DNA of 64,000 nt from Glycomyces xiaoerkulensis (lineage in GTDB: Bacteria > Actinomycetota > Actinomycetes > Mycobacteriales > Micromonosporaceae): positions 186,001 through 250,000 of the forward strand of contig NZ_PGGV01000029.1 of NCBI RefSeq assembly GCF_002798405.1. Direction: 5' to 3'. Under the pieces are notes generated by a model. It did not search any database and was not told the DNA's origin. It saw nothing but the letters and a program-made list of their open reading frames with translations. Position 1 is the first letter of the stretch, and each line of letters begins with the position of its first letter. Made by a program: the position numbers and the translations under genes. This document shows positions 19,011 to 40,720 of the stretch, piece after piece.

Positions 19011-21379
<2,369 letters not shown>

Positions 21380-21503: not shown

Positions 21504-22682
21504 ATGCGCGACCACCTTCCAAACCCCGAGGCAGGGACTCCCATCGCGCCGTTCCCGCCCGCCACCAGCGTCGTCCACGTCGGCCCGCACAAGACCGGCA
21601 CGACCGCCGTGCAGGCCTCGATGCACGCGGCCAGGGAGCGGCTCGGCGAGCACGGCGTCCGGCTGCCCAGCCCGAAGCGGAACCCCGTCGACGAGGTACG
21701 AGAAGGGGTCGGTTCCAACCCCCGGGACCCGGCCCGACCGGCCTGGTCCCGCCTGGTCGCGCAGTTCGCCGAGAACGACGACCGCGTCGACGTCGTCAGC
21801 AGCGAATTCTTCGCCGACGCCGATGACAGGGCCTGCCGGCGCGTGGTCTCGGATCTCGGTGGTCCGCAGGCCCACGTCCTGATCACGCTGCGGCCCCTGG
21901 CCAAGATCATGCCCTCCCAGTGGCAGCAGCACGTCCAGAGCGGCATGCACACCCCCTACGAGGAATGGCTGGCCGAGCTGCTGCGCCCGGACACCGACGA
22001 CCGGGCCTCCGCGATCTTCTGGCACCGGCACCGCCACGACGCCTTCGTCGAACGCTGGACCGCCGCGGCCGACCCCGAGCGGGTCACCGTCCTGGTCGTC
22101 GACGACTCGAAGCCCGAGAGGCTCCTGCGCGACTTCGAGGCGATGCTCGGCCTGCCCGAGGGGACCCTCCGCAACGAGAAGAACGCCACCAACCGGTCCC
22201 TGACCGCCGGCGAGACCGAGGCGATCCGGCGGACCGCGGCCGCCTTCGAGCAGCGCCAATGGCCCAAGGAGCTGTTCCGCGAGTACATCCGCTACGGCGT
22301 GGTGCCCCGCATCAAGACCAACCGCAAGCCCGGCCCCGGAGAGGCCAAGATCGCCACGCCCGCATGGGCGCTCGACCGGGCCGCCGAGATCGGCGCGGAG
22401 ATGGCCGACCGCATCGCCGCCTCCGGCGTGCGGGTGATCGGCGACCTCGGTGTGCTGCGCGGCGACGACATCAAGGCCGCCGAGCCCGGCGAGCCGCTGA
22501 TCGACCCGGAAGCCACCGTCCAGGCGATCGTCGCCTGCATGAACGTCGCGATGAAGCACTACGACGCCACCGCGCCGCGGCCCGAGGCCGAACCGGAGCC
22601 CGGGGGCGCCCGGGACTCCCTGCTGCGCATCGTCACCCAGCGGGCCCGAGGCCGCCTGTCGCGGAACCGAGCCAAGCGCTGA
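21504..22682 (+). CDS. PAPS-dependent sulfotransferase-like protein (1 of 3)
   Basis: 392 residues. The N-terminal VVHVGPHKTGTTAVQASM is the 5'-phosphosulfate loop of a P-loop sulfotransferase, and LITLRPLAKIMPSQWQQHVQ fits the 3'-phosphate site. Such proteins move sulfate from PAPS to a sugar or other hydroxyl. The protein ends in a basic region (RARGRLSRNRAKR), with no signal peptide, so it is probably cytosolic. ATG 21504 is the only good start. It is the first gene of the accessory locus and follows the atp terminator on the same strand, then 166 bases to the acyltransferases. The acceptor is unknown. Confidence 0.8.
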   Translation: MRDHLPNPEAGTPIAPFPPATSVVHVGPHKTGTTAVQASMHAARERLGEHGVRLPSPKRNPVDEVREGVGSNPRDPARPAWSRLVAQFAENDDRVDVVSSEFFADADDRACRRVVSDLGGPQAHVLITLRPLAKIMPSQWQQHVQSGMHTPYEEWLAELLRPDTDDRASAIFWHRHRHDAFVERWTAAADPERVTVLVVDDSKPERLLRDFEAMLGLPEGTLRNEKNATNRSLTAGETEAIRRTAAAFEQRQWPKELFREYIRYGVVPRIKTNRKPGPGEAKIATPAWALDRAAEIGAEMADRIAASGVRVIGDLGVLRGDDIKAAEPGEPLIDPEATVQAIVACMNVAMKHYDATAPRPEAEPEPGGARDSLLRIVTQRARGRLSRNRAKR

Positions 22683-22848
22683 CGGCGGCCCGGCGCCCTT
22701 CCTCGATTCGGTGGGGCCGCATCCGAACGATCGGCGAACGAGCCGCGAAACGTCCGTTAAATGCCAAGTTCGTAGTGGATCCCGCTCGTAAAATCTCGCG
22801 GGTGAAGGATGCGCTTCGATATCCGCCACGAGCACATCCGGGAGACCT

Positions 22849-24963
22849 GTGAGCATCGCAACCGGGAGTCATGCCACCGAGTCCCGAGTGCCCCCGAACA
22901 TCACGCCGTCGGTGGAGCCGAAGCTCCCGAAGTCGGCGTTCCGTCCCGACATCGAGGGCCTGCGTGCAATCGCGGTCGGCTTGGTGGTGCTCGGGCACGC
23001 CGGGTTCCCGTATCTGGACGGCGGATATGTCGGTGTCGACGTCTTCTTCGTGATCTCGGGATTCTTGATCACGTCGCTGCTGCTGCGGGAGCTGGCCGAT
23101 ACCGGGCGGATCTCGGTGGCCGGGTTCTACGCCCGCCGCGCCACCCGATTGCTGCCGATGGCCGCGACCGTCATCGTCGCCACGCTGGCGGCCTCCTGGC
23201 TCTGGCTGGCACCGACCCGCTTCCAGGCGATCGTCGGTGACGCCCTCTCGAGCTCCCTGTACTTCGTGAACTACCGGTTGGCGTTCGAGGGGACGCAGTA
23301 TCTGAACGCCGATGAGGCGCCGTCGCCGTTTCAGCATTTCTGGTCGCTGGCGGTCGAGGAGCAGTTCTACCTGATCTGGCCGCTGCTGCTGATGGCGGTG
23401 GCGCTGATCCTCCGCGACCGGCGGGAGCTGATCCGCGACGGTCTCGCCGTAGTGCTGATCGTGATCACCGGCGCGACGTTCGCGGCCGGCGCGGTCCTGA
23501 CCGAAGCCGATCCGGTGTGGTCGTACTTCGGGCTGCACACGCGCGGCTGGGAGTTGGCCATCGGTGCGCTCGTCGCCGTTGCCGCCGGTGTCCTCGTCAA
23601 GACCCCACGTACCATCGCGGCGCTGCTGATGTGGGGAGGCCTGGCGGCGATCGTCTGGGCGGCGTTCAACTACGGAGATGCAACGATCTTTCCCGGGATC
23701 GCTGCGGCGGTGCCGGTGCTGGGGACGGCGGCGGTGATCGCGGGCGGCTGCGCTGCCCCGCGCCTCGGCGCGGGCGGCATGTTGAGCCTCCCGGCGTTCC
23801 AGGTGCTGGGGAAGCTCTCGTACGGTCTGTACCTGTGGCACTGGCCGGTGCTCATGATCGGCCCGGCCGCGCTCGACATGCAGCCGACCGTGCGCCTCAA
23901 CCTGGTGCTCGCGGCGGCGGCGCTCGGCATCACCGCCGTCACCTACGAGGTGGTCGAGAACCCGGTGCGGTTCGCGAAGTTCCTCAAACGCCGACCTCGA
24001 CGCGGCATCGGCCTCGGAGCGGCCCTGACAGCATGCACGGCCGCCCTGGCGCTCACGGCCGGAGCGTTGCTCGCCCCCCAGAACCTCGGCGACGGCGAAC
24101 CGGTCGCCACGCCGGAGGTCGACACGGTCGAAGAGCTCAACGATCTGATCCGGGAGTCGGCCGCCTACCACGGCACACCGTCGAATCTGACCCCGCCGCT
24201 CGAGGCCGCCGACGACCTCGCCGAGATCTACGAGAACGGCTGCAACACCTACATGCGGGACACCGAGGTAAAGGCCTGCAAGTTCGGCGAAGTCGGCGCC
24301 GACACGAAGGCTGTGCTGTTCGGCGACTCGCACGCCGCCTCCTGGTTCCCGGCCTTGAACCTGCTGGCCGAGGACAACGACTGGGAGCTGACCCTCCACA
24401 CCAAGAGCGCCTGCCCGGCCCCCATGGTCGCCAAGAACGTCTCGGACCTGGGCGGCCGGTACCACGAGTGCGATCAGTGGCGCGACGACGCGATCGACCG
24501 CATCCTCGCCCAGAAGCCGGACCTGATCGTGGTGGGAACCAGCGAGAGCAACAACCCGGTCACCCCGGAGGGCGGCGACTCCGAACAGGTGTGGTTGGAC
24601 GGATGGCGGGAGACCCTCGAACTCCTGGCGGGCAGCGGCGCCCGGATCGTGCTTCCGTCCAACCCGCCGAAGTTCGAATCGTCCGTGCCCGACTGCGTCT
24701 CGGCGAACCTCGACGATCCCTCGGTGTGCGGCGGCGCTGCGAGCGAGTTGATCGTCAACCGCGGACGCGAGCAGCGGGTACTGGAGATGGCCGAGAGCCT
24801 CGGCGTGCATACGATCGACACCGAGGACTGGTTCTGCGCCGACGACTTCTGCCCGGTCATCGTCGGAAGCATGCTGGCGTTCCGGGACTCCCACCACTTC
24901 AACACCACCTACTCCGAGTACCTGGCCCCGGTCCTGGCCGCGGAGCTGCCCGAGATCGAATAG
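22849..24963 (+). CDS. OafA-like membrane O-acyltransferase with SGNH domain, copy 1
   Basis: 704 residues. The N-terminal half (about 25-390) is an acyltransferase-3 domain of about ten membrane helices; it starts FRPDIEGLRAIAVGLVVLGH and contains GVDVFFVISGFLIT. After one more helix comes an extracytoplasmic SGNH/GDSL domain with LFGDSHAASWF (block I) and DSHHFN (block V). This two-domain form adds acetyl or similar groups to surface polysaccharides (as in OafA, OatA). GTG start at 22849 with GGGAG upstream. The next gene is a close paralogue 10 bases downstream. The glycan acceptor is not known. Confidence 0.9.
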   Translation: MSIATGSHATESRVPPNITPSVEPKLPKSAFRPDIEGLRAIAVGLVVLGHAGFPYLDGGYVGVDVFFVISGFLITSLLLRELADTGRISVAGFYARRATRLLPMAATVIVATLAASWLWLAPTRFQAIVGDALSSSLYFVNYRLAFEGTQYLNADEAPSPFQHFWSLAVEEQFYLIWPLLLMAVALILRDRRELIRDGLAVVLIVITGATFAAGAVLTEADPVWSYFGLHTRGWELAIGALVAVAAGVLVKTPRTIAALLMWGGLAAIVWAAFNYGDATIFPGIAAAVPVLGTAAVIAGGCAAPRLGAGGMLSLPAFQVLGKLSYGLYLWHWPVLMIGPAALDMQPTVRLNLVLAAAALGITAVTYEVVENPVRFAKFLKRRPRRGIGLGAALTACTAALALTAGALLAPQNLGDGEPVATPEVDTVEELNDLIRESAAYHGTPSNLTPPLEAADDLAEIYENGCNTYMRDTEVKACKFGEVGADTKAVLFGDSHAASWFPALNLLAEDNDWELTLHTKSACPAPMVAKNVSDLGGRYHECDQWRDDAIDRILAQKPDLIVVGTSESNNPVTPEGGDSEQVWLDGWRETLELLAGSGARIVLPSNPPKFESSVPDCVSANLDDPSVCGGAASELIVNRGREQRVLEMAESLGVHTIDTEDWFCADDFCPVIVGSMLAFRDSHHFNTTYSEYLAPVLAAELPEIE

Positions 24964-24973
24964 GGAAGCGTGA

Positions 24974-27118
24974 ATGGCCGTCTCAACCTCCACCCAAGCC
25001 GCCGAGACCCGGACCGGGCGCGATCCGGAACCGCCCCGGCGACCGAGCAAGTCGGCGTTCCGTCCCGACATCGAGGGCCTGCGTGCGGTCGCGGTGGGCC
25101 TGGTGGTGCTCGGGCACGCCGGGTTCCCGTATCTGGACGGCGGTTATGTCGGTGTCGACGTCTTCTTCGTGATCTCGGGGTTTCTGATCACGTCGCTGCT
25201 GCTGCGGGAATTGAACGGGACGGGCCGGATCTCGGTGGCCGGGTTCTATGCCCGTCGCGCCACCCGATTGCTGCCGATGGCCGCGACGGTCACAGTCGCG
25301 ACCCTGGTCGCCTCGTGGCTCTGGCTGGCACCGACCAGGTTCGCGGCGATCGCCGGTGACGCGCTGGCCAGTTCGCTCTATTTCGTGAACTACCGGTTGG
25401 CGTTCGAGGGCACCCAATACCTGAATGCCGATGAGGCGCCGTCGCCGTTTCAGCATTTCTGGTCGCTGGCGGTCGAGGAGCAGTTCTATCTTGTATGGCC
25501 GCTCCTCCTCATTGCGGTGGCGCTGGTCCTGCGCGCGCGCCGCGACCTGATCCGCGACGGGCTCGCGGTCGTCCTGATCATGATCGTCGGCACCACCTTC
25601 GCCGTCAGCGCGCTGCAGACCCAAGCCGATCCGGTGTGGTCGTACTTCGGGCTGCACACGCGCGGCTGGGAGCTGGCGATCGGAGCGCTCGTGGCGGTCG
25701 CGGCCACCGCGCTGGCGCGAACACCGCGGCCGCTCGCGGCGCTGCTGATGTGGGGCGGCCTGGCGGCGGTCGTGTGGGCGGGGTTCAACTACGGCGACTC
25801 GACCGTGTTCCCCGGGATCGCTGCGGCGGTGCCGGTGCTGGGGACGGCGGCGGTGATCGCGGGCGGCTGCGCAGCCCCGCGCCTCGGCGCGGGCGGCATG
25901 TTGAGTCTGCCGCCGTTCCAGGTGCTGGGGAAGCTCTCGTACGGGTTGTATCTGTGGCACTGGCCGGTGCTCATGATCGGCCCGTCCGCACTCGGACAGG
26001 AACCGTCGGTCAGACTCAACCTGGTACTCGCGGCGGCGGCGCTCGGCATCACCGCCGTCACCTACGAGGTGGTCGAGAACCCGGTGCGGTTCGCGAAGTT
26101 CTTCAAGCGGCGGCCCTGGCGCGGCATCGGCCTCGGAGTGGCGCTGACGGGCGGTTCGGCCGCGATCGCCATCGGAGCGGGTCTGCTCTTCGCCCCGCAG
26201 GCCACCGGCGGCGCGGACCCGGTCGCGACCCCCGAGGTGGACACCGTCGAGGAACTCAATCGGCTCATCGGCGACTCGCTCGAGCGCGAGGGCACGCCGT
26301 CGAACCTGGCGCCGCCGCCCCTCGATGCCAAGAGCGATCTGCCCGAGGTCTACGCGACCGGCTGCCACGCCGAGACCGAGCAGACCGAGGTCGACCCGTG
26401 CGTCTACGGTCATGCGGGCGCCGATACGCGGGTCGTGCTGTTCGGCGACTCGCACGCCGCCTCCTGGTTTCCGGCGCTCCGGGAGCTGGCCGAACGGAAC
26501 GGCTGGGAGCTGACCTCGTACACCAAGAGCGGGTGCCCGGCGCCGATGATCATCAAGAACGCCCGCGATCTCGGTGGCCGGTACCACCAGTGCGAAGGGT
26601 GGCGAGAGGCCGCGATCGAGCGGATCGTCGGCGACCGGCCGGACCTCGTCGTCGTCGGGTCCAGCGAGGGCAATACGCCCATCACAGAGGACGGTGAATC
26701 GGTCGCCCAAGCCTGGGTGGACGGCTGGAGGGCCACGCTCGAACGGCTCCAGGAGAGCGGGGCCGAGATCGTGCTGCCGTCGAACCCGCCGAGCTTCGGA
26801 GTGAACGTGCCCGACTGCGTCTCCGAGAACCTCGACGACCCGTCGGTGTGCGGGGGACCGGCGAACGAACTGATCCGCCGCGGCGAGCGCGAGCAGCGGG
26901 TACTGGAGATGGCCGAGAGCCTCGGCGTGCACACGATCGACACCGAGGACTGGTTCTGCGCAGGCGGCACCTGCCCGGTGATCGTCGGCAACATGCTCAC
27001 CTTCCGCGACTCGCACCACTTCAACGCGACGTACTCGGAGTTCCTGGCCCCGGTCCTGGCCGGAGCGCTGCCCGACATCGACTTATCGCAATGCCGTTCA
27101 GTTAGGGGCCGGCGATGA
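24974..27118 (+). CDS. OafA-like membrane O-acyltransferase with SGNH domain, copy 2 (3' end altered)
   Basis: 714 residues, same architecture as copy 1 and nearly identical to it over the membrane domain (for example KSAFRPDIEGLRA and NYRLAFEGTQYLNADEAPSP in both). The SGNH motifs LFGDSHAASWF and DSHHFN are intact. The linker and N-terminus differ more. Copy 1 ends at ELPEIE, whereas copy 2 runs past ALPDID into LSQCRSVRGRR. These last 11 codons and the stop come from the end of an inserted transposon remnant that starts at 27089, so the original stop has been lost. The change is small and far from the active site; the enzyme is probably functional. Confidence 0.9.
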   Translation: MAVSTSTQAAETRTGRDPEPPRRPSKSAFRPDIEGLRAVAVGLVVLGHAGFPYLDGGYVGVDVFFVISGFLITSLLLRELNGTGRISVAGFYARRATRLLPMAATVTVATLVASWLWLAPTRFAAIAGDALASSLYFVNYRLAFEGTQYLNADEAPSPFQHFWSLAVEEQFYLVWPLLLIAVALVLRARRDLIRDGLAVVLIMIVGTTFAVSALQTQADPVWSYFGLHTRGWELAIGALVAVAATALARTPRPLAALLMWGGLAAVVWAGFNYGDSTVFPGIAAAVPVLGTAAVIAGGCAAPRLGAGGMLSLPPFQVLGKLSYGLYLWHWPVLMIGPSALGQEPSVRLNLVLAAAALGITAVTYEVVENPVRFAKFFKRRPWRGIGLGVALTGGSAAIAIGAGLLFAPQATGGADPVATPEVDTVEELNRLIGDSLEREGTPSNLAPPPLDAKSDLPEVYATGCHAETEQTEVDPCVYGHAGADTRVVLFGDSHAASWFPALRELAERNGWELTSYTKSGCPAPMIIKNARDLGGRYHQCEGWREAAIERIVGDRPDLVVVGSSEGNTPITEDGESVAQAWVDGWRATLERLQESGAEIVLPSNPPSFGVNVPDCVSENLDDPSVCGGPANELIRRGEREQRVLEMAESLGVHTIDTEDWFCAGGTCPVIVGNMLTFRDSHHFNATYSEFLAPVLAGALPDIDLSQCRSVRGRR
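27089..27107 (+). repeat. Left terminal inverted repeat of the IS4-type element
   Basis: CAATGCCGTTCAGTTAGGG. It supplies the final codons of acyltransferase copy 2 on the plus strand and the transposase stop (TAA) on the minus strand. Confidence 0.85.
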
Positions 27119-27350
27119 CGCTGATGTCGAGGGTGGCTTTGTAGGTTCGGCGGTCGACCGGGCCTTTGGCTCGGTGTTTGGAGATCGCGCGTTTGACCAC
27201 GCGGGGCGCGGTTCGCAGCCTGCGTCCGGGCAGCAGGTACTGGTGCACCTGCCGCCCGATCAGGCCGGTGAGGTCGATGGCCTCGTCGTCGACGATGTTC
27301 TCGGCTCGGGTGAGCTGGTCGCGTGCGGCCTCGACACCCGGCCCACAGCC
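27102..27350 (-). pseudogene. IS4 family transposase, C-terminal remnant
   Basis: Read from the minus strand, this stretch gives GVEAARDQLTRAENIVDDEA, then LTGLIGRQVHQYLLPGRR and finally RVVKRAISKHRAKG and TYKATLDISVIAGP before TAA. The VKRAISKxxAKG ... YKATLxI ending is the typical C-terminus of actinobacterial IS4-type transposases. No start codon and no catalytic DDE residues remain; an in-frame TAG lies at the right repeat. It is a dead fragment of about 80 codons. Confidence 0.8.
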
Positions 27351-27367
27351 CTAACTGAACGACATTG
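27349..27367 (-). repeat. Right terminal inverted repeat of the IS4-type element
   Basis: CCCTAACTGAACGACATTG, the reverse complement of the left repeat with one mismatch. Confidence 0.85.
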
Positions 27368-27407
27368 CCGCTAAGCGGCGCATAAAAGGGGCGCTCGAGA
27401 CTACGGA

Positions 27408-28313
27408 TCAGATGCCGCGTCCGCGCCGGTGGAGGGCGGACATGACGGCGGGGACGCCGACGATGCCGGCCGCCGCGGCGGCGGCGACCGCCGCGCGCGG
27501 TTCGCTCGGGTTCGACCTGGTCGCCCGTAGCGCCCACCGCAGCGCCGCCCGGCGGTCGCCGATCGCGGCGTGCCAGCAGGCGAGCTGGCCGTAGACCCGG
27601 GCCGCGCCCTCAGGGCTGCCGTGGATCTCCGGGTGCCGCGCCAGGATCCACCGCAGCGAGGAGATCTTGGTGTCCCAGCGGGTCTCGAAATGCGAACCGG
27701 CCCAGTTGATGAGCGCGTACGGGGTGTCCACGTGCGCGATCGGGCGGCGCCTGGCCGCCCGCAGCAGCATGTCCCAGTCCTCGTTCTGGCTGCCGGGCGC
27801 GTCCTCGGCCACCAGTCCCAGCCCGCCCATGAGGGCCTCGCGCCGGAACAGGAAAGTCGAGGAGTGCAGCATCATCATCCGCGACCGCAGCAGGTCCGCG
27901 TGCCGCACCGTCGCCTGCCCGGCCACTCGCGAGTTCCGGCGCCCGCGGTAGTCGACCTCGATCGCGGCCGTGCACATCTCGGCCTCGGTGCCGAGGGCCG
28001 CGACCTGCGCGGTGAGCTTGCCCGGCAGCCATTCGTCGTCGTCGTCGAGGAAGGCGATCAGTTCGGTGCCGAGCTCGGCGATGCCGGTGTTGCGGGCCCC
28101 GGCCAGGCCGGGAGTGCGTTCGTTCTTCATCACCTTGACCGGCCGCTGTCCGCCGGAGGCGAGCTCCTCGTCGGGGGCGGCGCGGTCGAAGACGACGACC
28201 GTGTCGAGCTCACCGGGGTAGAACTGGGTGACCACCGAGCGGAGCGCCTCGCGCACCTGCCGGGGCCGGTCGTGGGTCGGGATCACGACTCCGACCGAAG
28301 GCCAGTCGCTCAT
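27408..28313 (-). CDS. Glycosyltransferase family 2
   Basis: 301 residues from ATG 28313; the longer open frame upstream is a shadow of the sulfotransferase. GT-A features: GVVIPTHDRPRQVREALRSV at the N-terminus, GLAGARNTGI, and the metal/nucleotide-sugar motif FLDDDDEWLP near residue 90, with the acceptor-side EDWDMLLRA near 185. The C-terminal 60 residues are Ala-rich helices resembling a TPR hairpin. It would add one sugar in the cytoplasm. Its start overlaps the stop of the sulfotransferase upstream (ATGA), so the two genes are coupled. Donor and acceptor sugars are unknown. Confidence 0.88.
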   Translation of the reverse strand: MSDWPSVGVVIPTHDRPRQVREALRSVVTQFYPGELDTVVVFDRAAPDEELASGGQRPVKVMKNERTPGLAGARNTGIAELGTELIAFLDDDDEWLPGKLTAQVAALGTEAEMCTAAIEVDYRGRRNSRVAGQATVRHADLLRSRMMMLHSSTFLFRREALMGGLGLVAEDAPGSQNEDWDMLLRAARRRPIAHVDTPYALINWAGSHFETRWDTKISSLRWILARHPEIHGSPEGAARVYGQLACWHAAIGDRRAALRWALRATRSNPSEPRAAVAAAAAAGIVGVPAVMSALHRRGRGI

Positions 28314-29353
28314 TCGCCGCCTCCCTGCGAGTGCACCCGGCAGGCGTCGTCCGGGGCCGACCGCCCGTCGTCGGGTGCGGGTTCGTCTTCGTTGAGATAG
28401 CCGTAGCGGCCCAGCAGCGGCCGGGTCAGGGTCGACACCATCCGGCGGGTGCTCTCCGGCAGATCCTCGGCCCACGCCTCGTCGGTCCGGATGGGGATGC
28501 GGCCGACGGTGAACCGCATCGGGTTCCCGGCCGCCGAGTGGCTCGGGCCGAGGTCGGCCCAGCCCTCGCCGATGAAATTCAGGTCGGACTCGGCCAGGTC
28601 GAGCCCGCAGAACCGGGCGAGGGAGGCGATCACCTTGCGGGGGCGCTCGATGATGCGCTCGTAACGGACCCGCCGCACCGGCACGCCGCGCCGCGCCAGC
28701 AGGCTGAACGCGGCGTTCTGGGCGTTCCAGAGCATCGCGGCCTTCGTGGGGGAGTAGCGGGTCATCTGCTCGCCGGTGGGCGACTCGGGCCGGCGGACCT
28801 TCTTGGTCCAGGAGTAGGCCACGCCGCGGGAATCGCGCACCACGTGGAGGATGCGCAGGTCGATGTTCGGCGACCAGCGCAGGCAGTAGGCCAGCGAGGC
28901 GTGCTTGGAGGAGTCGACCACGACCCGGGCGTTCGTGTCGGCCGCCGCGGCGGCGTAGACGCGCTCGAAATAGGAAGCGTACTCGCGCACGAGCCGGTGC
29001 TGGTCGGTCGCGAGCTTCTTCCCGGCCAGCACCGGGATGTGCCGGGTCCGGTCCACGGTGGCTTTGAGGGCGGAGAGCCGCTCCACGTCGACCCGGTCCC
29101 AGGATCCGAAGGCGGCCTTGCCGATGCGCTGCCAGAACTCGCAGTGGGAGAAGGTCGCCCCGCAGGCGCACATCTCGTCGGCGACCAGGTCTCGTTCCCA
29201 CAGGTGGGTGATCTCCCCCAGGGGCATGACGCCCGGCAACTGCCCGAGCAGGCGTTCCAGGAGCGTCGTGCCGCTGCGGCCCAGACCTCCGATGAACACC
29301 ACCCGGACGGGGTTCTCGGACTGCTCGGCCGTGTCGGCGATCTTGGCGCTCAC
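28310..29353 (-). CDS. PAPS-dependent sulfotransferase (2 of 3)
   Basis: 347 residues from GTG 29353, which has GGGGAG 9 bases upstream. An ATG at 29479 would give 42 more residues but would consume the whole gap to the divergent wecG-like gene. The PAPS sites are clear: FIGGLGRSGTTLLERLL (5'-phosphosulfate loop) and VVVDSSKHASLAYCLRW plus LHVVRDSRGVAYSW (3'-phosphate site). A CACG/C pair (MCACGATFSHCEFW) may bind metal or form a disulfide. It is coupled to the GT2 gene, which suggests that both act on the same glycan. Confidence 0.87.
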   Translation of the reverse strand: MSAKIADTAEQSENPVRVVFIGGLGRSGTTLLERLLGQLPGVMPLGEITHLWERDLVADEMCACGATFSHCEFWQRIGKAAFGSWDRVDVERLSALKATVDRTRHIPVLAGKKLATDQHRLVREYASYFERVYAAAAADTNARVVVDSSKHASLAYCLRWSPNIDLRILHVVRDSRGVAYSWTKKVRRPESPTGEQMTRYSPTKAAMLWNAQNAAFSLLARRGVPVRRVRYERIIERPRKVIASLARFCGLDLAESDLNFIGEGWADLGPSHSAAGNPMRFTVGRIPIRTDEAWAEDLPESTRRMVSTLTRPLLGRYGYLNEDEPAPDDGRSAPDDACRVHSQGGGE

Positions 29354-29477
29354 TGGTCGCTGCTCCCCGTTCTCGTCGTCGGTGCTCGTATGGGTAACGA
29401 CTCTGGGTGGGGTGGGGGACACGCCCTGAGGTGAAAAATCCCGGAAAAGGCGGCGGATCGCCCTACCGTCTGATGGC

Positions 29478-30302: not shown

Positions 30303-30323
30303 CCCATTCGGTCTACTGAAGGT

Positions 30324-30898: not shown

Positions 30899-30902
30899 GC
30901 CC

Positions 30903-31634: not shown

Positions 31635-31643
31635 CGGATTCCC

Positions 31644-33065: not shown

Positions 33066-33103
33066 GTCGGCGGCCGCGGTCCGCTCGCGCGGTCGGGCCG
33101 CTG

Positions 33104-33988
33104 TCAGCGCCTCCAACTCGGCGTCCCGCCCAACCAGTCGGCCAGCCGCGCGTCGTACGGCTCGAAGTGGTCGGTCAGGCGCCGCCGCAGCGCGTCCGGC
33201 ATCGGGGACGGCCGGCCGCGGGCGTTGTGCCGGGAGAAGGCGAATTCGCCGATCCACGGCAGCCCGAGGAACCGCAGCACGCGCTCGAAGGCGTCTTCGG
33301 GGCGGGAGAAGAACTCCCCGGAGTCGAGCACCAGGAGCCGGTCGCGGCCCACCTGGTCGGCCAGCGGCTCCAGGTAGTCGGTGTAGCGGCCCCGTGCGAG
33401 GTAGGCGTGGTGCTGGTGGTCGAAGCTGTAGTGATCCGCGTCGGCGCGGAGCCGCTCCTCGACGCCGAACAGCCGGTCAGGTTCGGCTCCGATGGCGGTC
33501 TCGAAATCGTCGATGTCCTCGAATTCGCGGGCGATCTCGTGGGCGTGGTGGGACCAGGCCCGCTCCACCGGGTCGCGGACGAGCACGATCACCTTGACGC
33601 CCGGCAGGTCGCGGGCGAAGCGCGGCGCGGCCAGCGGGTGGTAGAGGTAGTACGGGCTCGACTCGAATCCGACCGGGACGAGTCCGGTGTGGTCGGCCGC
33701 GCGCTGCGCGGCGGCCTTGGTGGGGAAGTGCGCCCGGTACCAGGACAGGCCCCGCCGGTAGCCGGTGTCGAAGTAGTGGACTCCTTTGTGGAACACCGGC
33801 TTGAGCATGGCCGGATGCTGCGACAGGGCGCGGTACAACGACGTGGTGCCGCACCGCTGTCCGCCGCAGATCAGCAGCCCGGGGAGGATGCGGGAGGCCG
33901 CGGTCAGCCGCCCGAGGGTCCGGCTGGACCGGCCGACGACGGCCCTGACGGGAGTGGGAACCCGTTCTCTGATCATCCGCTCGCTCAA
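33104..33988 (-). CDS. PAPS-dependent sulfotransferase, heparan-sulfotransferase type (3 of 3)
   Basis: 294 residues. LLICGGQRCGTTSLYRALSQ is the 5'-phosphosulfate loop, KVIVLVRDPVERAWSHHAHE the 3'-phosphate site with the Arg and Ser that hold PAP. This form (Sulfotransfer_1, heparan NDST-like) modifies carbohydrates. It also has the GVHYFDTGYRRGLSWYRAHF stretch typical of glycan sulfotransferases. It is in the Wzz-Wzy-kinase-sulfotransferase-Wzx operon. Confidence 0.9.
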   Translation of the reverse strand: MSERMIRERVPTPVRAVVGRSSRTLGRLTAASRILPGLLICGGQRCGTTSLYRALSQHPAMLKPVFHKGVHYFDTGYRRGLSWYRAHFPTKAAAQRAADHTGLVPVGFESSPYYLYHPLAAPRFARDLPGVKVIVLVRDPVERAWSHHAHEIAREFEDIDDFETAIGAEPDRLFGVEERLRADADHYSFDHQHHAYLARGRYTDYLEPLADQVGRDRLLVLDSGEFFSRPEDAFERVLRFLGLPWIGEFAFSRHNARGRPSPMPDALRRRLTDHFEPYDARLADWLGGTPSWRR

Positions 33989-34032
33989 TCGATGCTCCTA
34001 ACAGTCCATAATGCTGATCGGTGGGTGCGGGG

Positions 34033-35241
34033 TCAGGTTTCTCGTTGCCTGGCGATGTGCCGCAGCAGGGTCGGCAACAGCCACTGGCCGAGGGCGCCGA
34101 GGGCCGCACCGGCCTGCTCGGCCCGGTCGCTCATGTAGCGCGCCGCGAGCTCCACCAGGTACAGCAGGCATGTCGGTTCCGATTCGGACGGCGCCACGCC
34201 CATCGGGGCCAGCACGGACGGCGCCCGCGCGACCAGCAGCAGCACCGCGGTGGTGGGGTCGACCCGGTGGGTGACGATGTCGTCCTGGAGCCGGTAGTGG
34301 ACCGCGTCGAATCCGTACGGCACGCCGGTCTCGAACCGCTCCAGGTCCCACAGGTAGACGGCCTCGGCCGCCTCGCAGGTGTTCCAGGGCGTCCAGTCCC
34401 CGTGCCACGACCCGAACGTCAGCTCCAGGGCGCCGTATCGGTCCAGCAGGGTCTGCCCGGCCGCGCTCAGGGTGGCGGCGTCGGGTTCGCCGCGCAGGCC
34501 GAGCCGTTTGAGGCGCTCGCGCAGCCGGGCGGCGTAGTCGGACTCGGCCAGCGGTGAGCGTTTGAGCCGGTCCACCGCGGCCAGTTCCCGCATCGCCTCG
34601 ACGCGCCGGGCCGGGCTGGAGTCGACCGGCTCGGTCCAGGCCGGGAGCGCGGAGGTGACCATGAGGCGGTGGCCGCGCCAGGCGCCGGCGTGCACCAGCG
34701 ACGGCACCCGCAGCCGCTCCAGGCGGCGGCCTTCGCTGAGCCGCCGGGTGGCCGCGGTCTCGGCCTCCACCAGTTCTCGGGTGAGGTCGTTGACGCCCAG
34801 CTTGGCGAACGCGACCGTGCGCGCCTCGCCGTCGAGGATCTGGAGCACCGGCTTCCGATTGGCCCGCGCCGGACCGATGTGGACGCTCAAGTGGACCTCG
34901 TGGCCGAGCACGGCGCTGAGATGCTCGTCGATGCCCTCGGCGGCCGCGACCTCGATGCGGTGGGGCAGCAGCAGCCGGTCGAGTCCGAGCTTGAGGGCCC
35001 ACACGGCCGCGTCGCGCTTGGCGCGGGCGGTGCGGGCGGACGGGCGCGAGTAGCGTGCCAGCGCCCCGGCGGCGATCCGGCGGTCGCCGGCGGGAATGAG
35101 GACTCGGGGCTTCCGCCGGTTGGGCACGACTATGTACGGGCGGGTGCCCCCTCCCGGGCCCGGATAGAGCTGGTCGACGACCTCGGTGAGATAACTCGCG
35201 CGTCTGCGCAGGTCGTCGGTGGTCTGCAGGCCTCGGCTCAT
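34033..35241 (-). CDS. Orphan APH-fold kinase-like protein in polysaccharide operon
   Basis: 402 residues from ATG 35241, overlapping the upstream ligase stop (ATGA). I do not recognise a named family. The C-terminal half has the catalytic loop of aminoglycoside-phosphotransferase-like kinases, SWHGDWTPWNTC (HxDxxxxN), followed by VYLWDLERFETG, where the metal Asp would sit. The N-terminal half has LARY, RPYIVVPNRRKPRVLIPAGD and a beta-rich stretch (HEVHLSVHIGPARANRKPV) like an N-lobe. It may phosphorylate a sugar or lipid intermediate, or be a regulatory pseudokinase, since the usual DxD is D-L-E. Similar orphan genes occur in other actinobacterial capsule loci. Confidence 0.65.
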   Translation of the reverse strand: MSRGLQTTDDLRRRASYLTEVVDQLYPGPGGGTRPYIVVPNRRKPRVLIPAGDRRIAAGALARYSRPSARTARAKRDAAVWALKLGLDRLLLPHRIEVAAAEGIDEHLSAVLGHEVHLSVHIGPARANRKPVLQILDGEARTVAFAKLGVNDLTRELVEAETAATRRLSEGRRLERLRVPSLVHAGAWRGHRLMVTSALPAWTEPVDSSPARRVEAMRELAAVDRLKRSPLAESDYAARLRERLKRLGLRGEPDAATLSAAGQTLLDRYGALELTFGSWHGDWTPWNTCEAAEAVYLWDLERFETGVPYGFDAVHYRLQDDIVTHRVDPTTAVLLLVARAPSVLAPMGVAPSESEPTCLLYLVELAARYMSDRAEQAGAALGALGQWLLPTLLRHIARQRET

Positions 35242-36590
35242 GCTTTCTCCACGGGTCTGTTGGCGGCAAGGACGACGTAGCTGAGGAGCGTGAGCAGCAG
35301 GGGGGTCACCAGGGCGTTGTAGTAGAGCATGGACAGCAGGGACAGCCCCAGCACCGCCGAGCCGGCGATGCCGATGGGGGAGTGGTCGGATCGGAAGCGC
35401 CACAGCGCGGCGCACATGAAGCCGAGGTAGGCGGCGGTGCCCGCCAGCCCGTGGGCGAACAGCACCTGCCAGAGCTGGCCGTTGCCGCCGAGCGTGCGGC
35501 CCCCGCAGCGGGGGCATTCGGGGGTGGGGCCGATGGCGATGGAGTCGCCCGACCCCAGGGTCTTGCGAGTGGAGCCGAAGCCGAGCACCGGCGAGTGCTC
35601 GACGACGAGCTCGGTGGCGCGTTCGGTGGCGAAGGCGCGGCCGTCGTCGGAGTGGCCGTTGTCGAGCCGGGCGGCCACCAGAGTGCCCAAGGGGGTGAGG
35701 GCGACCAGCAGTGCCGCGGCGCACCCCGCTCCGGCCAGTGCCGCCACCCCGCCGGGCCGGCCGGACAGGAGCAGCCGCAGCGCGGCGAAGACGGCGACCG
35801 CGGCCAGGCCGAGCCACAGGCCCCGGTTCATCGAGTGCACGGCCGGGATCAGCGAGAGGGCCAGTACCGCGGCCGCCGCCACGCGCCAGCGGGTCGCGGT
35901 CGGCAGGCAGAAGGCGGCCACGACCAGCCACACCGAGGTGATGGCGAAGTTGTTGCCCCAGGTGTTGGTGTAGCCCCAGGGCGCCGACGGTCGCGGGGTC
36001 TCGTAGCCGAGGAAGGTCATCGTCTGGGCGGCCGAAGGGTGGACCAGCGACCGCACGAAGCCGTCGGCGGCCACCGACTCCGGCAGCAGCGCCTCGACCG
36101 GCGAGGTGTACTCGAACCCCCCGGCGAAGGTGCCGAGCAGGCCCCCGGCGACGGTGACGGTGAACAGGTAGGCGAGCAGCCGGATCAGCCGCACGGCCGG
36201 GTAGCGGCCGTCGTTGGCGAGGTTGTAGGCCCACAGGGCGATCAGCGTGAGGCAGCAGTAGAAGCCGATCCGGAAGGCCGCCCCGGGCAGGTTCGCCGTC
36301 CAGGGGCCGGGGACCGTGCCGGGCGGGTCGACGCCGAGATTCGCCAGGCTCATGGTGACCGCCAGCAGGAACAGCAGCCACCACCCGAACGCCGGCGGGA
36401 CGGCGACGGTGCGGCGGCGCAGCAGCCCGACCGCGGCCAGGGCGGCGACCAGCGGGATGGCCAGCACGCCCATGCCGAGCGCCCACCACACCGGGTAGCC
36501 GGCCAGCAGCCAGGTGAGGGCCGCGCCCTCCCCGGTCGCGGCGCCGTCCCGGTCTCGTCGCGCCCCGGGGGCCGCATCGGCGAGGGTCAT
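35238..36590 (-). CDS. O-antigen ligase/polymerase-like membrane protein
   Basis: 450 residues from ATG 36590. About 11 membrane helices with one large extracytoplasmic loop near 270-330 holding HSPVLGFGSTRKTLG and ECPRCGGRTLGGNGQLWQ. The STRK-type arginine and the H-x-x-x-x-G pattern fit Wzy/WaaL (GT-C fold). It polymerises or ligates glycan units outside the membrane. Both ends overlap neighbours by 4 bases (the Wzz-like stop and the kinase-like start). Confidence 0.85.
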   Translation of the reverse strand: MTLADAAPGARRDRDGAATGEGAALTWLLAGYPVWWALGMGVLAIPLVAALAAVGLLRRRTVAVPPAFGWWLLFLLAVTMSLANLGVDPPGTVPGPWTANLPGAAFRIGFYCCLTLIALWAYNLANDGRYPAVRLIRLLAYLFTVTVAGGLLGTFAGGFEYTSPVEALLPESVAADGFVRSLVHPSAAQTMTFLGYETPRPSAPWGYTNTWGNNFAITSVWLVVAAFCLPTATRWRVAAAAVLALSLIPAVHSMNRGLWLGLAAVAVFAALRLLLSGRPGGVAALAGAGCAAALLVALTPLGTLVAARLDNGHSDDGRAFATERATELVVEHSPVLGFGSTRKTLGSGDSIAIGPTPECPRCGGRTLGGNGQLWQVLFAHGLAGTAAYLGFMCAALWRFRSDHSPIGIAGSAVLGLSLLSMLYYNALVTPLLLTLLSYVVLAANRPVEKA

Positions 36591-38245
36591 CGGCTCTCGG
36601 CCTGCGTGCGGTCGGTCCGGCCGGTCTCGTCCTGAGCTTCGACCACGTCGAGCGCGTCGGTGGGGGTCTCGTCGGCCGCCATCGGCCGCGGGACGCGGGT
36701 GCGTGCGGGCGGGGACTCGGTCTCCGCGGCGCCGGGCAGCGGGACGTCGCCCATCGGCCCCAGTGAACCGGGCAGGAGCACGGCACCGAGCAGCGGCGTG
36801 TCGATCTGCCGCATGGCGGTAGCGGCGGCGGAGGTCTCGGCGAGCGTGTCGCGCTGGGCCTGGACGGCCAGGATCACCGCGTCGGCATGTCCGGCCAGGA
36901 GCTGTGCGTCGGCCGAGCAGGACAGGGGCGGGGCGTCGACTACCACGAACCGGCCGGCCTCGGCGAGCTTGGTGAACGTCTCGGCGGCGGCTTCGCTGGT
37001 CGGACCGGTGGCGCGGGCCGCGGCGCCGGGGCCGACGACCGAGAGTGTCGGTTGCCGCGGCGCGCCGTGCAGCGCCGCGGCCAGGTCGAGGCGGCCCGAC
37101 CACACGTCGGCGAGGCCCGGGACGGGGTCGGTGCCGAACAGCTCCGGCAGGCCCACGGTGGTGCTCGGATTCGCGGCCACGGCCGTGACCCGGTCGCCGG
37201 CGCGGGCCATCGCGGTGGCCACGTTGGCGGCGGTGACGCTCGCGGCCGGACCCGGCGCGACTCCGGCCACCACCACGACCCGCTGGCCGTCGCCGAGCCG
37301 GGAGGCGATGACGTTGCGCATCTGCGAGTAGATGCGCCCGCCGGGGCTGTAGGCGCCGAAGACCTCGCGGCGCTGGAATTTCACCGACTTGGGCACCGAG
37401 CCGAGCACGTCGAGCTCGCAGCGGTCGATCAGGTCCGAGGCGAAGGCGACCCGGCGGGCCAGGCGGTGGCGGGCCCAGGCGAGCATCAGGCCCAGCGGTA
37501 GGCCGGCCCCGACCGCGGCGGCCAGGTTGAGCAGCGCATTCGGGGCGGCCGGGTCTTCGGGCAGCGGGGGCCGGTTGATGATCCGCCCGGGCGTGACGGC
37601 CTCCTGCTCGGCTTCCAGGGCCGCGATCTGGGATTCGACCCCGTCGGCCCGGTTGACCAGATCCTCGAGCTCGGACTCGACGGTGGCGCGGTCCCCGTCG
37701 AGCGGAGCGAGGCGCGCCAGCTCGGCCTCGGTCGCCTCGATCTGGGATTCGAGCGACTCCAGGCGGTTCACGGCCCCGGCGATGGCGTTTTCGATCGAAA
37801 CGGTCGCGGCCGCGCCGCGGTGGTCGAGGTACGCCTCGCTGAAGGCGATCGTGCCCGCCCGAGCCGCCTCGGGGCCGCCGGCGCGGAAGCTGATCTCCAG
37901 CACCGAGGTGTTCGGGGGCACCGAGACCGACACCTGCTCGGCGAGCTCGGTCGTGGACGGTGCCGACAGCCGCTCGGCGGCGGCCTGTGCGACCTCTGTG
38001 GACTTGACCAGTTGCGCCTCGGTGTCGAGATTGACCTGTCCGGCCGTGCGCGCACCGGCCACGTCGGTGTCGGATGCGGTCGGCAGCACCAGGACCGAGG
38101 CGGTCGATTCGTATACCTCGTCGGTGGTCGCGGTGTGGACGAGCCCGGCCGCCACCGCGGCGGCGACGGCGCCGGAGATGATCCACCAGGAGCGGCGGGC
38201 GATGACGCCGTAGTCGGCGAGCGTGCGGGCGGTGGGGGTCCTCAA
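36587..38245 (-). CDS. Wzz-like chain-length protein with degenerate BY-kinase domain
   Basis: 552 residues. Two membrane helices (about 22-40 and 240-262) enclose an extracytoplasmic alpha/beta and coiled-coil domain (Wzz/LpsE type). The cytoplasmic part (280-500) is a P-loop fold like a bacterial tyrosine kinase, but the Walker A is lost: VVVVAGVAPGPAASVTAANV has no GKT/S, and the Walker A' region (RVTAVAANPS) lacks the catalytic Asp. VVVDAPPLSCSADAQLLAG, the Walker B remnant, is still present. No tyrosine cluster follows. So it probably sets chain length but does not phosphorylate. First gene of the operon; divergent from the GH26 gene. Confidence 0.85.
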   Translation of the reverse strand: MRTPTARTLADYGVIARRSWWIISGAVAAAVAAGLVHTATTDEVYESTASVLVLPTASDTDVAGARTAGQVNLDTEAQLVKSTEVAQAAAERLSAPSTTELAEQVSVSVPPNTSVLEISFRAGGPEAARAGTIAFSEAYLDHRGAAATVSIENAIAGAVNRLESLESQIEATEAELARLAPLDGDRATVESELEDLVNRADGVESQIAALEAEQEAVTPGRIINRPPLPEDPAAPNALLNLAAAVGAGLPLGLMLAWARHRLARRVAFASDLIDRCELDVLGSVPKSVKFQRREVFGAYSPGGRIYSQMRNVIASRLGDGQRVVVVAGVAPGPAASVTAANVATAMARAGDRVTAVAANPSTTVGLPELFGTDPVPGLADVWSGRLDLAAALHGAPRQPTLSVVGPGAAARATGPTSEAAAETFTKLAEAGRFVVVDAPPLSCSADAQLLAGHADAVILAVQAQRDTLAETSAAATAMRQIDTPLLGAVLLPGSLGPMGDVPLPGAAETESPPARTRVPRPMAADETPTDALDVVEAQDETGRTDRTQAESR

Positions 38246-38449
38246 CGCGAATGCCTTTCTGGTTCACGGGCTTTCGTAGGGATAACGAGTCACCGGCCGA
38301 CCAGGTGACGGCTCCCGGGCTCCGTGCCCTCCACCGACGGAGCGCGAGCGGAGCTCGTGCGAACAATCGGGCAAAAACCACGATCGCGACCATTATGATG
38401 ATTCGCAGGATTCAGGTGCACCATCACAGTAGACCCGCGAGGTGGCGAG
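38246..38449. promoter_or_regulatory. Divergent promoter region, Wzz operon / GH26
   Basis: 204 bases between divergent starts. The right half is A+T-richer (GCAAAAACCACG, CATTATGATGATTCG). TATGAT at 38394-38399 could be a -10 for the GH26 gene, but I see no good -35. No clear operator palindrome. Confidence 0.4.
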
Positions 38450-40147
38450 ATGAGCGAATCGGACGGACGGACCGGCCTCCCCATCACCTCGGGCCGCGGG
38501 CTCGTCACGCTCCTGGCGGTCGCCCCGCTCGTCCTGGCCGGCTTCGTGGTCGGCTACGGCGTCGGCGTCGAACACGAACGCGGCACCCCCACCGTCGCCG
38601 ACGCCGCCCGGGAACGGACCGGGTCCGAGGCCGACTACGCGCCGTCCACCGCCACCTTCACCGCCACCGGCCTCGACGAACCCGCCCCCGACGCACCGGC
38701 CGCCCTCCCCGTCGGCACCTCCCAGGACCTGGGCATCACCGTGCCCTACATCCAATTCGCCGTCGACGAGTCCCACACCGGCCCCCACCACACCGCCGAG
38801 CTCCGCCTGCCCGTCCTGGTCCCGCCCGAAGCCGACCGGATGATGATCGAGGTCGCCTCGGTCCGCCCGGTCGGCTGCACGTGCGAGCTAACCGCCGACG
38901 CGCCGCCGCCCTACGGGCGCGTCTGGGACACCGCCTTCGTCGGCCCCGACACCGGCGAAGCCGCCCTCGACGTCACCGGCGCCCTCGACGCCCCCGGACG
39001 CTACGCCTTCGCCGTCACCGCCCACGAACCCGAGTCCTATTTCGAATTCGAGGGAGTCCGGTACACCGAGAGCGGCCCGGTACTGCGCACCGTCACCACC
39101 CCGCCCTCGGCCCCGAGCCCGCCGCCCGCCCCGAGCCCCACCCCGACCGACCCGGTCGGACCGGACCGGCCGGCCCCCGAGGCGGGCCAGGCCGAGACCA
39201 CCCTCGACACCTGCCGGGCCCGCCGGCACCTCGTCCCCTCCTGCGGCACCCTCGTCGGCGCCGCCGCCGGGGCCCACACCAACCGGTCCAAGGAGCAGGC
39301 ATTCCTCGAATTCGAGAGGACCGCCGAGCGAGGGCAGCACATCTACCACGCCTACGAGCGCGCCGACCGGCGCCTCTTCCCCACCGAAGAACAGATAGCG
39401 CTCGCGACCGATCCGCAGCAGCCCCGCACCCTGTTCATCAACTGGAAGCCGCGCATGGCGACCTGGGGGGAGATCGCCGCCGGAGACCCCGAGGTGGACG
39501 AGTACCTGGAACGCCTGGCCGACCACATCAAGACCAATTTCGACCAGCCGTTCTTCTTCACCGTCCACCACGAGCCCGAGAACGACGTCATCGACCGGCC
39601 CGGCTCGGGCATGGAGGCCACCGATTACCCGGCGATGTTCCGCTACGTGGTCGAGTTCCTCCGGGAGCGCGGGGTGGACAACCTGGTCACCGTCATGAAC
39701 TACATGGGCTACCTCAAGTGGGTCGAGACGCCCTGGCACGACCGGCTCTACCCCGGCGACGACGTGGTCGACTGGATCGGCCTGTCGGGATACGGCAACT
39801 CCCTCGCCGACGACGGCCACTCCGACTTCACCGAGATCGTCAACGAGGCCGAGCCCGAGGCCGGCTGGCCCGGCTTCTACCACTGGACCGGGGTCAATTT
39901 CCCCGACAAGCCGGTCATGCTCGCCGAATGGGGCGTGTTCACCAGGGACGACTACCCGCACCACCAGGAGACGGTCTTCGACAGCGCCGACGAGCAGTTC
40001 GCCTACTACCCGCGGCTGAAGGCGATCGTCTACTTCTCCTCGCCGGACGCCGAGGGCCGCGACTCCGAAGTCGACAACGATCCGGGCGCACTGCGGGCGT
40101 TCCGCGACCTGATGGCCGCGCCGCGCTTCGACGTCGAGCTCGAATAA
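38450..40147 (+). CDS. GH26-like glycoside hydrolase, membrane-anchored
   Basis: 565 residues. An N-terminal anchor or uncleaved signal (about 17-40, TLLAVAPLVLAGFVVGYGVG) is followed by a beta-rich domain (60-225) and a Pro-rich linker (PSAPSPPPAPSPTPTDP), then a (beta/alpha)8 catalytic domain. FFFTVHHEPENDV holds the acid/base Glu and PVMLAEWGVF the nucleophile Glu, the pattern of GH26 (mannanase, lichenase and polysaccharide-lyase-like hydrolases). As in other Wzx/Wzy loci, it may trim or release the locus glycan. Substrate unknown. The stop TAA at 40145 lies on the antisense of an unusually long glycosylase frame. Confidence 0.85.
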   Translation: MSESDGRTGLPITSGRGLVTLLAVAPLVLAGFVVGYGVGVEHERGTPTVADAARERTGSEADYAPSTATFTATGLDEPAPDAPAALPVGTSQDLGITVPYIQFAVDESHTGPHHTAELRLPVLVPPEADRMMIEVASVRPVGCTCELTADAPPPYGRVWDTAFVGPDTGEAALDVTGALDAPGRYAFAVTAHEPESYFEFEGVRYTESGPVLRTVTTPPSAPSPPPAPSPTPTDPVGPDRPAPEAGQAETTLDTCRARRHLVPSCGTLVGAAAGAHTNRSKEQAFLEFERTAERGQHIYHAYERADRRLFPTEEQIALATDPQQPRTLFINWKPRMATWGEIAAGDPEVDEYLERLADHIKTNFDQPFFFTVHHEPENDVIDRPGSGMEATDYPAMFRYVVEFLRERGVDNLVTVMNYMGYLKWVETPWHDRLYPGDDVVDWIGLSGYGNSLADDGHSDFTEIVNEAEPEAGWPGFYHWTGVNFPDKPVMLAEWGVFTRDDYPHHQETVFDSADEQFAYYPRLKAIVYFSSPDAEGRDSEVDNDPGALRAFRDLMAAPRFDVELE

Positions 40148-40720
40148 GGACACCGACGGCGCCCTCGGATGCCGCTTGTACGGCGAGACGAACCGGTCCC
40201 CGGCGATCCAGAACCGCCACGGCACCTCCGCGGCCTTCGAGACCCCCGTCCGCGGACCGGCCTCCACCGCGAATCCCCGCTCGCCGGGCTCGACCTCGCC
40301 GACCATATCGGCGCCGTCGTCGCCGCGGTCCCAGCCCAGCGCCCGGGCCAGCCGCGCCGGGCCGCGCGCCAGATCCCGGGCCGGCGCGCGATCGCCGCGC
40401 CGCAACCGCGCGCGTTCGACCCCGTCGACGACCTCGCCGGCCCGCAGCAGCACCGCCGCACCCGCTCCCTCCGGACGACAGGTCAGGTTGGCGCAGTAGT
40501 GCAACCCGTAGGTGAAGTAGACGTACAGATGCCCGGCCGGGCCGAACATCACCGCCGTGCGCGCGGTGCGCCCTCGGAAGGAATGGGAGGCCGGATCATC
40601 CTCGCGGTAGGCCTCGACCTCGGTCAGCCGCACCGTCACCCCGTTCGCGGCCACCAGGCAGCCGAGCAGCTCCGGCGCCACCAGCACCGGGTCGCGCTCG
40701 AAGAAGGCCCGGTCGATCAC
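38888..40720 (-). CDS. 3-methyladenine DNA glycosylase (Mpg/AAG family), stop codon lost
   Basis: Removes alkylated purines from DNA. The GTG at 40720 overlaps the DUF3515 stop. The real domain is the first 185 codons (about 40167-40720): IDRAFFERDPVLVAPELLG, TEVEAYREDDPASHSF (catalytic Glu), YVYFTYGLHYCANL and WRFWIAGDRFVSPYK, where the family normally ends. Here no stop follows and the frame stays open for about 425 more codons, to 38888, most of it antisense to the GH26 gene. The tail looks like antisense translation (Val/Gly/Arg-rich), because that gene avoids TTA, CTA and TCA codons. The glycosylase call is sure; how the protein ends in the cell is not. Confidence 0.8.
   Translation of the reverse strand: MIDRAFFERDPVLVAPELLGCLVAANGVTVRLTEVEAYREDDPASHSFRGRTARTAVMFGPAGHLYVYFTYGLHYCANLTCRPEGAGAAVLLRAGEVVDGVERARLRRGDRAPARDLARGPARLARALGWDRGDDGADMVGEVEPGERGFAVEAGPRTGVSKAAEVPWRFWIAGDRFVSPYKRHPRAPSVSLFELDVEARRGHQVAERPQCARIVVDFGVAALGVRRGEVDDRLQPRVVGELLVGAVEDRLLVVRVVVPGEHAPFGEHDRLVGEIDPGPVVEAGPAGLGLGLVDDLGEVGVAVVGEGVAVSRQADPVDHVVAGVEPVVPGRLDPLEVAHVVHDGDQVVHPALPEELDHVAEHRRVIGGLHARAGPVDDVVLGLVVDGEEERLVEIGLDVVGQAFQVLVHLGVSGGDLPPGRHARLPVDEQGAGLLRIGRERYLFFGGEEAPVGALVGVVDVLPSLGGPLEFEECLLLGPVGVGPGGGADEGAAGGDEVPAGPAGVEGGLGLARLGGRPVRSDRVGRGGARGGRRARGRGRGGDGAQYRAALGVPDSLEFEIGLGFVGGDGEGVASGGVEGAGDVEGGFAGVGADEGGVPDAPVGRRRVGG

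Follow-up and report, generated by a model that had tools for sequence, protein, structure and literature searches.

We analyzed a 64,000-nucleotide window of the genome of Glycomyces xiaoerkulensis (contig NZ_PGGV01000029.1, positions 186,001 to 250,000 of the forward strand), in which a putative sulfated-polysaccharide locus occupies positions 21504-40147, with a core at 27408-38245. The contig is called C22 below, so that the window is C22:186001-250000, and the genome (G000) comprises 4.37 Mb in 40 contigs. Genes were called by our own guanine-cytosine (GC)-frame procedure, and start codons are uncertain. Families were assigned with Pfam and NCBIfam profiles, judged against the cut-off of each model, and AlphaFold models were used where sequence matches failed. 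A sequence-only reading of this DNA had proposed a locus for a sulfated, acylated surface polysaccharide, and all the gene classes that it named are present at 21504-40147 by Pfam or fold matches. In the following list, identities compare the nine core proteins of the window with those of locus L213 of genome G518, and Wps names refer to the wps-1 cluster of Actinoplanes missouriensis (AMIS_7280-7390), taken here from the passages covered of Tezuka and Ohnishi, June 2026 (PMC13390465).

21504-22682, forward strand: STa, putative third sulfotransferase with an HVGPHKTGTT loop, accessory module; fold match only
22849-24963, forward strand: AT3-SGNH (OafA-like) O-acyltransferase a, accessory module; PF01757 and PF19040 above cut-off
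24974-27118, forward strand: AT3-SGNH (OafA-like) O-acyltransferase b, accessory module; PF01757 and PF19040 above cut-off
27408-28313, reverse strand: GT2 glycosyltransferase, WpsA counterpart; PF00535 (scanned inside the longer open reading frame 27408-29201); 60% identity
28310-29479 (start possibly 29353), reverse strand: ST1 sulfotransferase, WpsB counterpart; PF13469 and PF00685 above cut-off; 60% identity
29478-30302, forward strand: GT26 (WecG/TagA/CpsF) glycosyltransferase, WpsC counterpart; PF03808, E 1.8e-53; 51% identity
30324-30898, forward strand: MazF/PemK-type toxin (PF02452, E 5.6e-24 for 30578-30898) with an upstream putative antitoxin, both within the locus
30903-31634, reverse strand: S-adenosylmethionine (SAM) methyltransferase, WpsF counterpart; PF13489, 27.3 bits against a cut-off of 27; 51% identity
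31644-33065, reverse strand: Wzx flippase (MatE), WpsG counterpart; PF01554 above cut-off (scanned as 31644-33257); 45% identity
33104-33976, reverse strand: ST2 sulfotransferase, heparan-sulfate-sulfotransferase-like, WpsH counterpart; PF13469, PF00685 and PF17784 above cut-off; 57% identity
34033-35241, reverse strand: kinase of the APH/fructosamine-kinase fold, WpsI counterpart; AlphaFold fold match; 47% identity
35238-36590, reverse strand: Wzy-like polymerase, WpsJ counterpart; Wzy_C PF04932, 20.8 bits against a cut-off of 31.7 (weak alone); 50% identity
36587-38245, reverse strand: Wzz protein with a tyrosine-autokinase-like domain, WpsK counterpart; PF02706 above cut-off; 39% identity
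38450-40147, forward strand: GH26-like glycoside hydrolase; PF02156, 25.1 bits against a cut-off of 20.2

The Wzx flippase and the Wzz protein, hallmarks of the Wzx/Wzy pathway, both score above their family cut-offs. Assignment is weakest for the polymerase and the third sulfotransferase; the Wzy-like gene, for all its weak family match, is kept in each of the 40 family loci described below. The kinase has no Pfam or NCBIfam match, and its AlphaFold model (predicted local distance difference test score, pLDDT, 90) matches fructosamine-3-kinase (FN3K) and aminoglycoside kinases (APH) in structure. Its motif HGDW(x)3N and second acidic motif WDxER are invariant across 34 aligned sequences. The tyrosine-autokinase-like domain of the Wzz protein resembles TIGR01007 but falls under the cut-offs of its models, and the Walker A lysine is absent from the P-loop in all 12 of the commonest variants (66 of 102 rows); the protein is therefore probably not an active autokinase. 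In the GH26-like protein, which is probably exported, judging by eye from a hydrophobic N-terminal stretch, the glutamates of the HHEPEND-type and LAEWG motifs are kept (69/78 and 78/78 rows of the commonest variants, respectively). The toxin gene and its putative antitoxin (30324-30581, without a family match in the profile scan), which the earlier inventory had omitted, are probably not part of the pathway.

On gene order and protein identity, the core at 27408-38245 is the counterpart of wps-1. Both share the order GT2, sulfotransferase, GT26, methyltransferase, Wzx, sulfotransferase, kinase, Wzy, Wzz, and for both a sulfated exopolysaccharide is predicted. The published products are WpsA (GT2), WpsB (sulfotransferase), WpsC (GT26), WpsD (DUF4262), WpsE (GH26), WpsF (methyltransferase), WpsG (Wzx), WpsH (heparan-type sulfotransferase), WpsI (kinase-like), WpsJ (Wzy) and WpsK (Wzz), and the authors state that production of the predicted sulfated exopolysaccharide awaits verification (PMC13390465). 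L213 (with ST2 at 0.785 Mb of G518) has the whole wps-1 order, including DUF4262, two GH26 genes and an adenosine 5'-phosphosulfate (APS) kinase gene adjoining Wzz; its nine core proteins stand in the same order as in the window and are 39-60% identical to them. The Glycomyces locus differs from wps-1 in several respects. It has no DUF4262 (WpsD) or internal GH26 (WpsE) gene between 30302 and 30903, where the toxin-antitoxin pair lies instead; its GH26 gene is at the outer edge; it has an extra sulfotransferase and two acyltransferases; and its APS kinase gene is 107 kb away, whereas AMIS_7390 is adjacent to wps-1.

Surface polysaccharides that carry sulfate are considered rare among bacteria. 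The contention that few actinobacterial systems for sulfated glycans are known needs amending, in that wps-1, also from an actinomycete, was published earlier. The mycobacterial sulfolipid pathway is likewise actinobacterial and dependent on 3'-phosphoadenosine 5'-phosphosulfate (PAPS), with supply by CysDN/CysC, but its product is a glycolipid made with polyketide synthases and not a Wzx/Wzy polysaccharide. The synechan (xss) cluster of Synechocystis, from a different phylum, is likened here by description: its paper concerns a sulfated exopolysaccharide by title, and the text names Wzx, Wzy and a sulfotransferase (PMC8205485). The introduction of the wps-1 report describes bacterial sulfated polysaccharides as reported only from cyanobacteria (PMC13390465).

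To describe the distribution of the locus, we compiled a family set (40 loci from 37 genomes of Micromonosporaceae with Glycomyces, chosen among the stronger Wzz matches) and a second set of 80 loci, some of which end at contig edges. Wzx, ST2, the kinase, Wzy and Wzz occur together in 40/40 family loci and 75/80 second-set loci, a recurrence that argues against chance grouping. All nine core genes are present in 27/40 and 60/80 loci, respectively. Beyond the family, the ST2 orthologue is rare: the phylum-wide search, which scored the best six or fewer candidates per genome, found ST2 relatives at E ≤ 1e-50 in 18 of 396 genomes, two of them family members, and at E ≤ 1e-80 only in G344 and the window's own genome. 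All 67 genomes of the genus to which G058 belongs have an ST2 relative at E ≤ 1e-80. A recent horizontal island was considered and set aside: the ordinary GC content and the wide spread in the family fit better with old presence and a variable decoration slot.

A second, more divergent block of Wzz, Wzy, kinase, ST2 and Wzx genes was observed in three genomes, G079, G059 and G045 (L083, L086 and L088); no matches to GT26 or the methyltransferase accompany these copies. The divergent locus of G045 (L088) has its own phosphoglycosyltransferase (PGT) about 3 kb from ST2, with no cysQDN in the stretch.

The decoration slot lies between GT2 and atpD. Among the 11 other Glycomyces loci that extend as far as atpD, two (L115 and L118) have STa there together with an AT3-SGNH gene, which indicates that decoration differs between members of the genus, with a constant core in those loci. 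We therefore rejected STa and the two acyltransferases as core genes and regard them as an accessory module of variable occurrence beside atpD. STa has no Pfam, NCBIfam or PDB sequence match. Its AlphaFold model has low confidence (pLDDT 61, three sequences), and all seven structural matches at E ≤ 1e-3 are sulfotransferases, with template-modelling (TM) scores of 0.34-0.43 over the query. Thus, two of the three PAPS-type sulfotransferases claimed earlier, ST1 and ST2, are supported by Pfam, and the third by fold only.

Whether ST1 and ST2 sulfate a glycan bears on a rival explanation, in which the locus makes an ordinary Wzx/Wzy polysaccharide and the sulfotransferase-like proteins act on small molecules, lipids or protein, or have lost activity. 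Against this rival stand the alignments, in which the GRSGTTL loop and RDxRGVAySW motif of ST1 are kept across 97 sequences and the cofactor-loop motifs of ST2 across 121. In both proteins we take these motifs to be the 5'-phosphosulfate loop and the 3'-phosphate motif. Both genes are also retained, ST2 in 40/40 family loci and ST1 in 37/40. ST1 is weakly related to solved sulfotransferases (best 4gox, E 1.5e-6), whereas the closest solved relatives of ST2 are a bacterial sulfotransferase and human heparan-sulfate N- and 3-O-sulfotransferases (PDB 3rnl, E 6.5e-14; NDST 1nst, E 1.7e-11). In or next to the locus, within the fetched stretch, an APS kinase gene is found in 17 of the 40 family loci, or 20 when counted from gene calls, and in 49 of the 80 second-set loci. 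On the side of the rival, the genus probably sulfates other compounds as well: eight more PF13469 sulfotransferase genes are scattered over seven other contigs of the genome (C4, C6, C8, C9, C23, C29 and C38; loci L003-L009 and L011), six of them encoding 399-422 amino acids by our gene calls, and all 18 Glycomyces congeners have 7-15 PF13469 matches per genome. The genetics of A. missouriensis divide in the same way, since WpsH loss gives squashed sporangia, as does loss of Wzx or Wzy, whereas WpsB loss leaves sporangium shape normal and lowers spore release 10-fold (PMC13390465). Overall, we regard this rival as quite improbable.

An initiating enzyme and PAPS synthesis had been described as missing from the window. 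Both lie outside it but are not missing from the genome: the same contig carries them, about 6 kb and 86 kb ahead of the window. A genome search for cysD/N/C and a WbaP/WecA-type enzyme found a cluster of PGT, cysQ, cysD and cysN and a single APS kinase gene. One of the two PF02397 PGTs of the genome is encoded at C22:175237 and is followed by genes for a CysQ-like phosphatase, CysD and CysN (C22:175237-179893), the cluster ending 6.1 kb before the window. The PGT scores 419 bits for TIGR03025 (cut-off 295.6); the CysQ label is the best family match, with a score well under the model cut-off. WecA next to the atp operon is an arrangement known from mycobacteria, and WecA was considered as the initiator, but none was detected among the scanned window genes upstream of or within atp (the scan lay outside 2958-4355, 12766-13485 and 14075-14476). 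A cysC fused to cysN is ruled out by the length of CysN (428 amino acids).

The sole APS kinase of the genome is the C-terminal domain of a 514-amino-acid protein (C22:98751-100295) whose N-terminal part is sulfurylase-like. This architecture resembles that of other proteins in which a sulfurylase-like domain is joined to APS kinase (PDB 3cr8 and 1i2d; Entamoeba APS kinase 23vk). The sulfurylase domain aligns to the fungal ATP sulfurylase 1i2d across QTRNPMHRAH, but the QTRNPxHRxH stretch is altered throughout, reading AD(R/K)PLHRPQ after a hydrophobic residue in all 54 orthologues, including that of L213, so that the HxxH motif is absent (HRPQ instead). According to the passages covered, the sulfurylase activity of human PAPSS1 requires each of the two HxxH histidines (PMC11697783). 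Loss of HxxH has a precedent in 3cr8, the best PDB match, which also has Gln for the second His. The APS kinase motifs G(L/F/Y)SGSGKST and KG(L/M)YA(R/K)ARAG are intact in the same 54 sequences, and from this contrast we infer that CysDN makes APS and that the fusion protein makes PAPS only. The CysH of the genome has the CC...CxxC form, presumably the mark of an APS rather than a PAPS reductase. PAPS is therefore probably dispensable for cysteine synthesis in this genome, as judged from protein motifs.

The two gene clusters tend to occur together. Among 61 family genomes, orthologues of both ST2 and PGT are present in 40, ST2 only in one, PGT only in four and neither in 16 (Fisher p 3.7e-10, from a hand tally of genomes that ignores kinship); the last group shows that coverage of the family is incomplete. 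Of 41 genomes examined around the PGT orthologue, 37 have cysD and cysN next to it; in two others the cluster runs off the contig end, and two lack these genes. The PGT cluster was also found in L228 and L229, from two other members of the genus holding G518. PGT and ST2 are less than 20 kb apart in four genomes of three genera: the gap is 15.5-18.3 kb in G041, G069 and G078, and in G064 a single stretch (L081) has the order PGT-cysQ-cysD-cysN-GT2-ST1-GT26-Wzx-ST2-kinase-Wzy-Wzz-GH26. In five more genomes (three Glycomyces, G043 and G052), the gap is 34-44 kb. A metagenome-assembled genome labelled as uncultured Thermomonosporaceae, another family, carries the locus (L154) with cysN next to ST1, a further link to sulfate activation.

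This linkage has to be weighed against another explanation, namely that the PGT-cysQDN cluster combines housekeeping sulfate assimilation with a PGT for a different polysaccharide, and that the linkage reflects chance and shared ancestry. Such a view is helped by cysD, which is single-copy and must thus serve cysteine synthesis as well; by the 0.37-2.4 Mb that separate PGT and ST2 in 7 of 16 tabulated genomes; by the four genomes with a PGT orthologue and no ST2 orthologue, all of them drafts and two less than 90% complete; and by the one genome with the reverse (G074). Against it count the co-occurrence tally, the four genomes with gaps under 20 kb, the five with 34-44 kb and the placement of cysN in L154. 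We consider the housekeeping explanation unlikely, if less so than the proposal that the sulfotransferases act on other substrates.

Based on the linkage to sulfate activation and the published wps-1 cluster, the best reading remains that first proposed, and we think it probable that the locus directs Wzx/Wzy-type synthesis of a repeat-unit polysaccharide that is sulfated before export. In such a pathway, the PGT encoded 6 kb before the window, whose assignment to this locus we infer, would place the first sugar phosphate on a lipid carrier, and GT26 and GT2 would elongate the lipid-linked unit. ST1 and ST2 would move sulfate from PAPS onto the unit, and the methyltransferase would methylate it, with a sugar or a regulator as the possible target of the kinase. 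Wzx would then flip the unit, Wzy would polymerize it, and the Wzz protein would set chain length, while the GH26 enzyme would work outside the cell. For the sulfate donor, CysDN would form APS, the sulfurylase-like/APS-kinase protein would convert it to PAPS, and CysQ would clear the 3'-phosphoadenosine 5'-phosphate (PAP) left over. The extra sulfotransferase and the two SGNH acyltransferases probably add further groups in this strain; trimming by GH26 and acylation of the same glycan, both part of the sequence-only reading, are guesses.

A broader proposal, for which we see about even chances, is that synthesis of a sulfated polysaccharide, perhaps one resembling glycosaminoglycans, is ancient and widespread in Micromonosporaceae with Glycomyces and relies on two linked clusters (the locus of heparan-type sulfotransferase, Wzx and Wzy, and an operon joining the first sugar transfer to sulfate activation), and that the APS kinase with a dead sulfurylase domain mainly feeds sulfation and not cysteine synthesis. 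Besides the single cysD, the distant PGT-ST2 pairs and the WpsB phenotype, the following points weigh against the main reading, a sulfated Wzx/Wzy polysaccharide. The genome encodes a second PGT. An APS kinase gene appears in 0/19 Glycomyces loci in the fetched stretches, in keeping with its distance from the locus in the window's genome. The eight extra PF13469 sulfotransferases likely consume PAPS too, so the PAPS genes need not be dedicated to the locus. By our search, 13/40 family loci are without at least one of GT2, ST1, GT26 and the methyltransferase. Finally, in the literature searched (largely open papers), we found no demonstration of sulfate on a glycan from any bacterium bearing this locus. 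The same literature search gave nothing on a sulfated-polysaccharide locus in Glycomyces or on the link between PGT and cysQDN.

We know of no sporangium formation in Glycomyces. The developmental phenotype is reported only for A. missouriensis, whose mutants in most of the counterpart genes and in the APS kinase gene form abnormal sporangia; WpsD loss has no effect and WpsE loss a mild one (PMC13390465). Deletion of AMIS_7390 leaves colonies on agar normal to the eye and sporangia severely defective, which the authors call unexpected; in the passages covered, the gene is introduced by way of amino-acid synthesis, not PAPS, and no initiating enzyme is named for wps-1 (PMC13390465). Loss of PAPS would explain this phenotype, because it would follow from deleting a protein whose sulfurylase domain lacks HxxH and whose APS kinase is intact. 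If the reading of a sulfated polysaccharide is right, the phenotype becomes a plain prediction (no PAPS, hence no sulfated matrix), and many soil actinomycete genera make a sulfated polysaccharide. The candidate enzyme set for such a polymer is now named in full, and the PGT and the APS kinase, each a single gene, are open to testing in the existing genetic system.

In the window, argS, hom, thrC, thrB, rho, prfA, prmC and the atp operon up to atpD precede the locus, which begins 124 bases past atpD; DUF3515, thiL and recG follow it. The locus is also near atpD in ten other Glycomyces records, G018 and G043. The atp operon is split: the sole atpC (epsilon subunit) match of the genome is not after atpD (gap 21379-21504) but on another contig, by DUF2550 (G000:C27:332394-332636). 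Between the PGT cluster and the window, at C22:180347-184757 (L015:14347-16434 and 16541-18757), two tandem genes encode proteins with similar DFGTSHTVV starts, the first of which is an odd fusion of an Hsp70-type domain and a glycine-betaine-binding domain (OpuAC).

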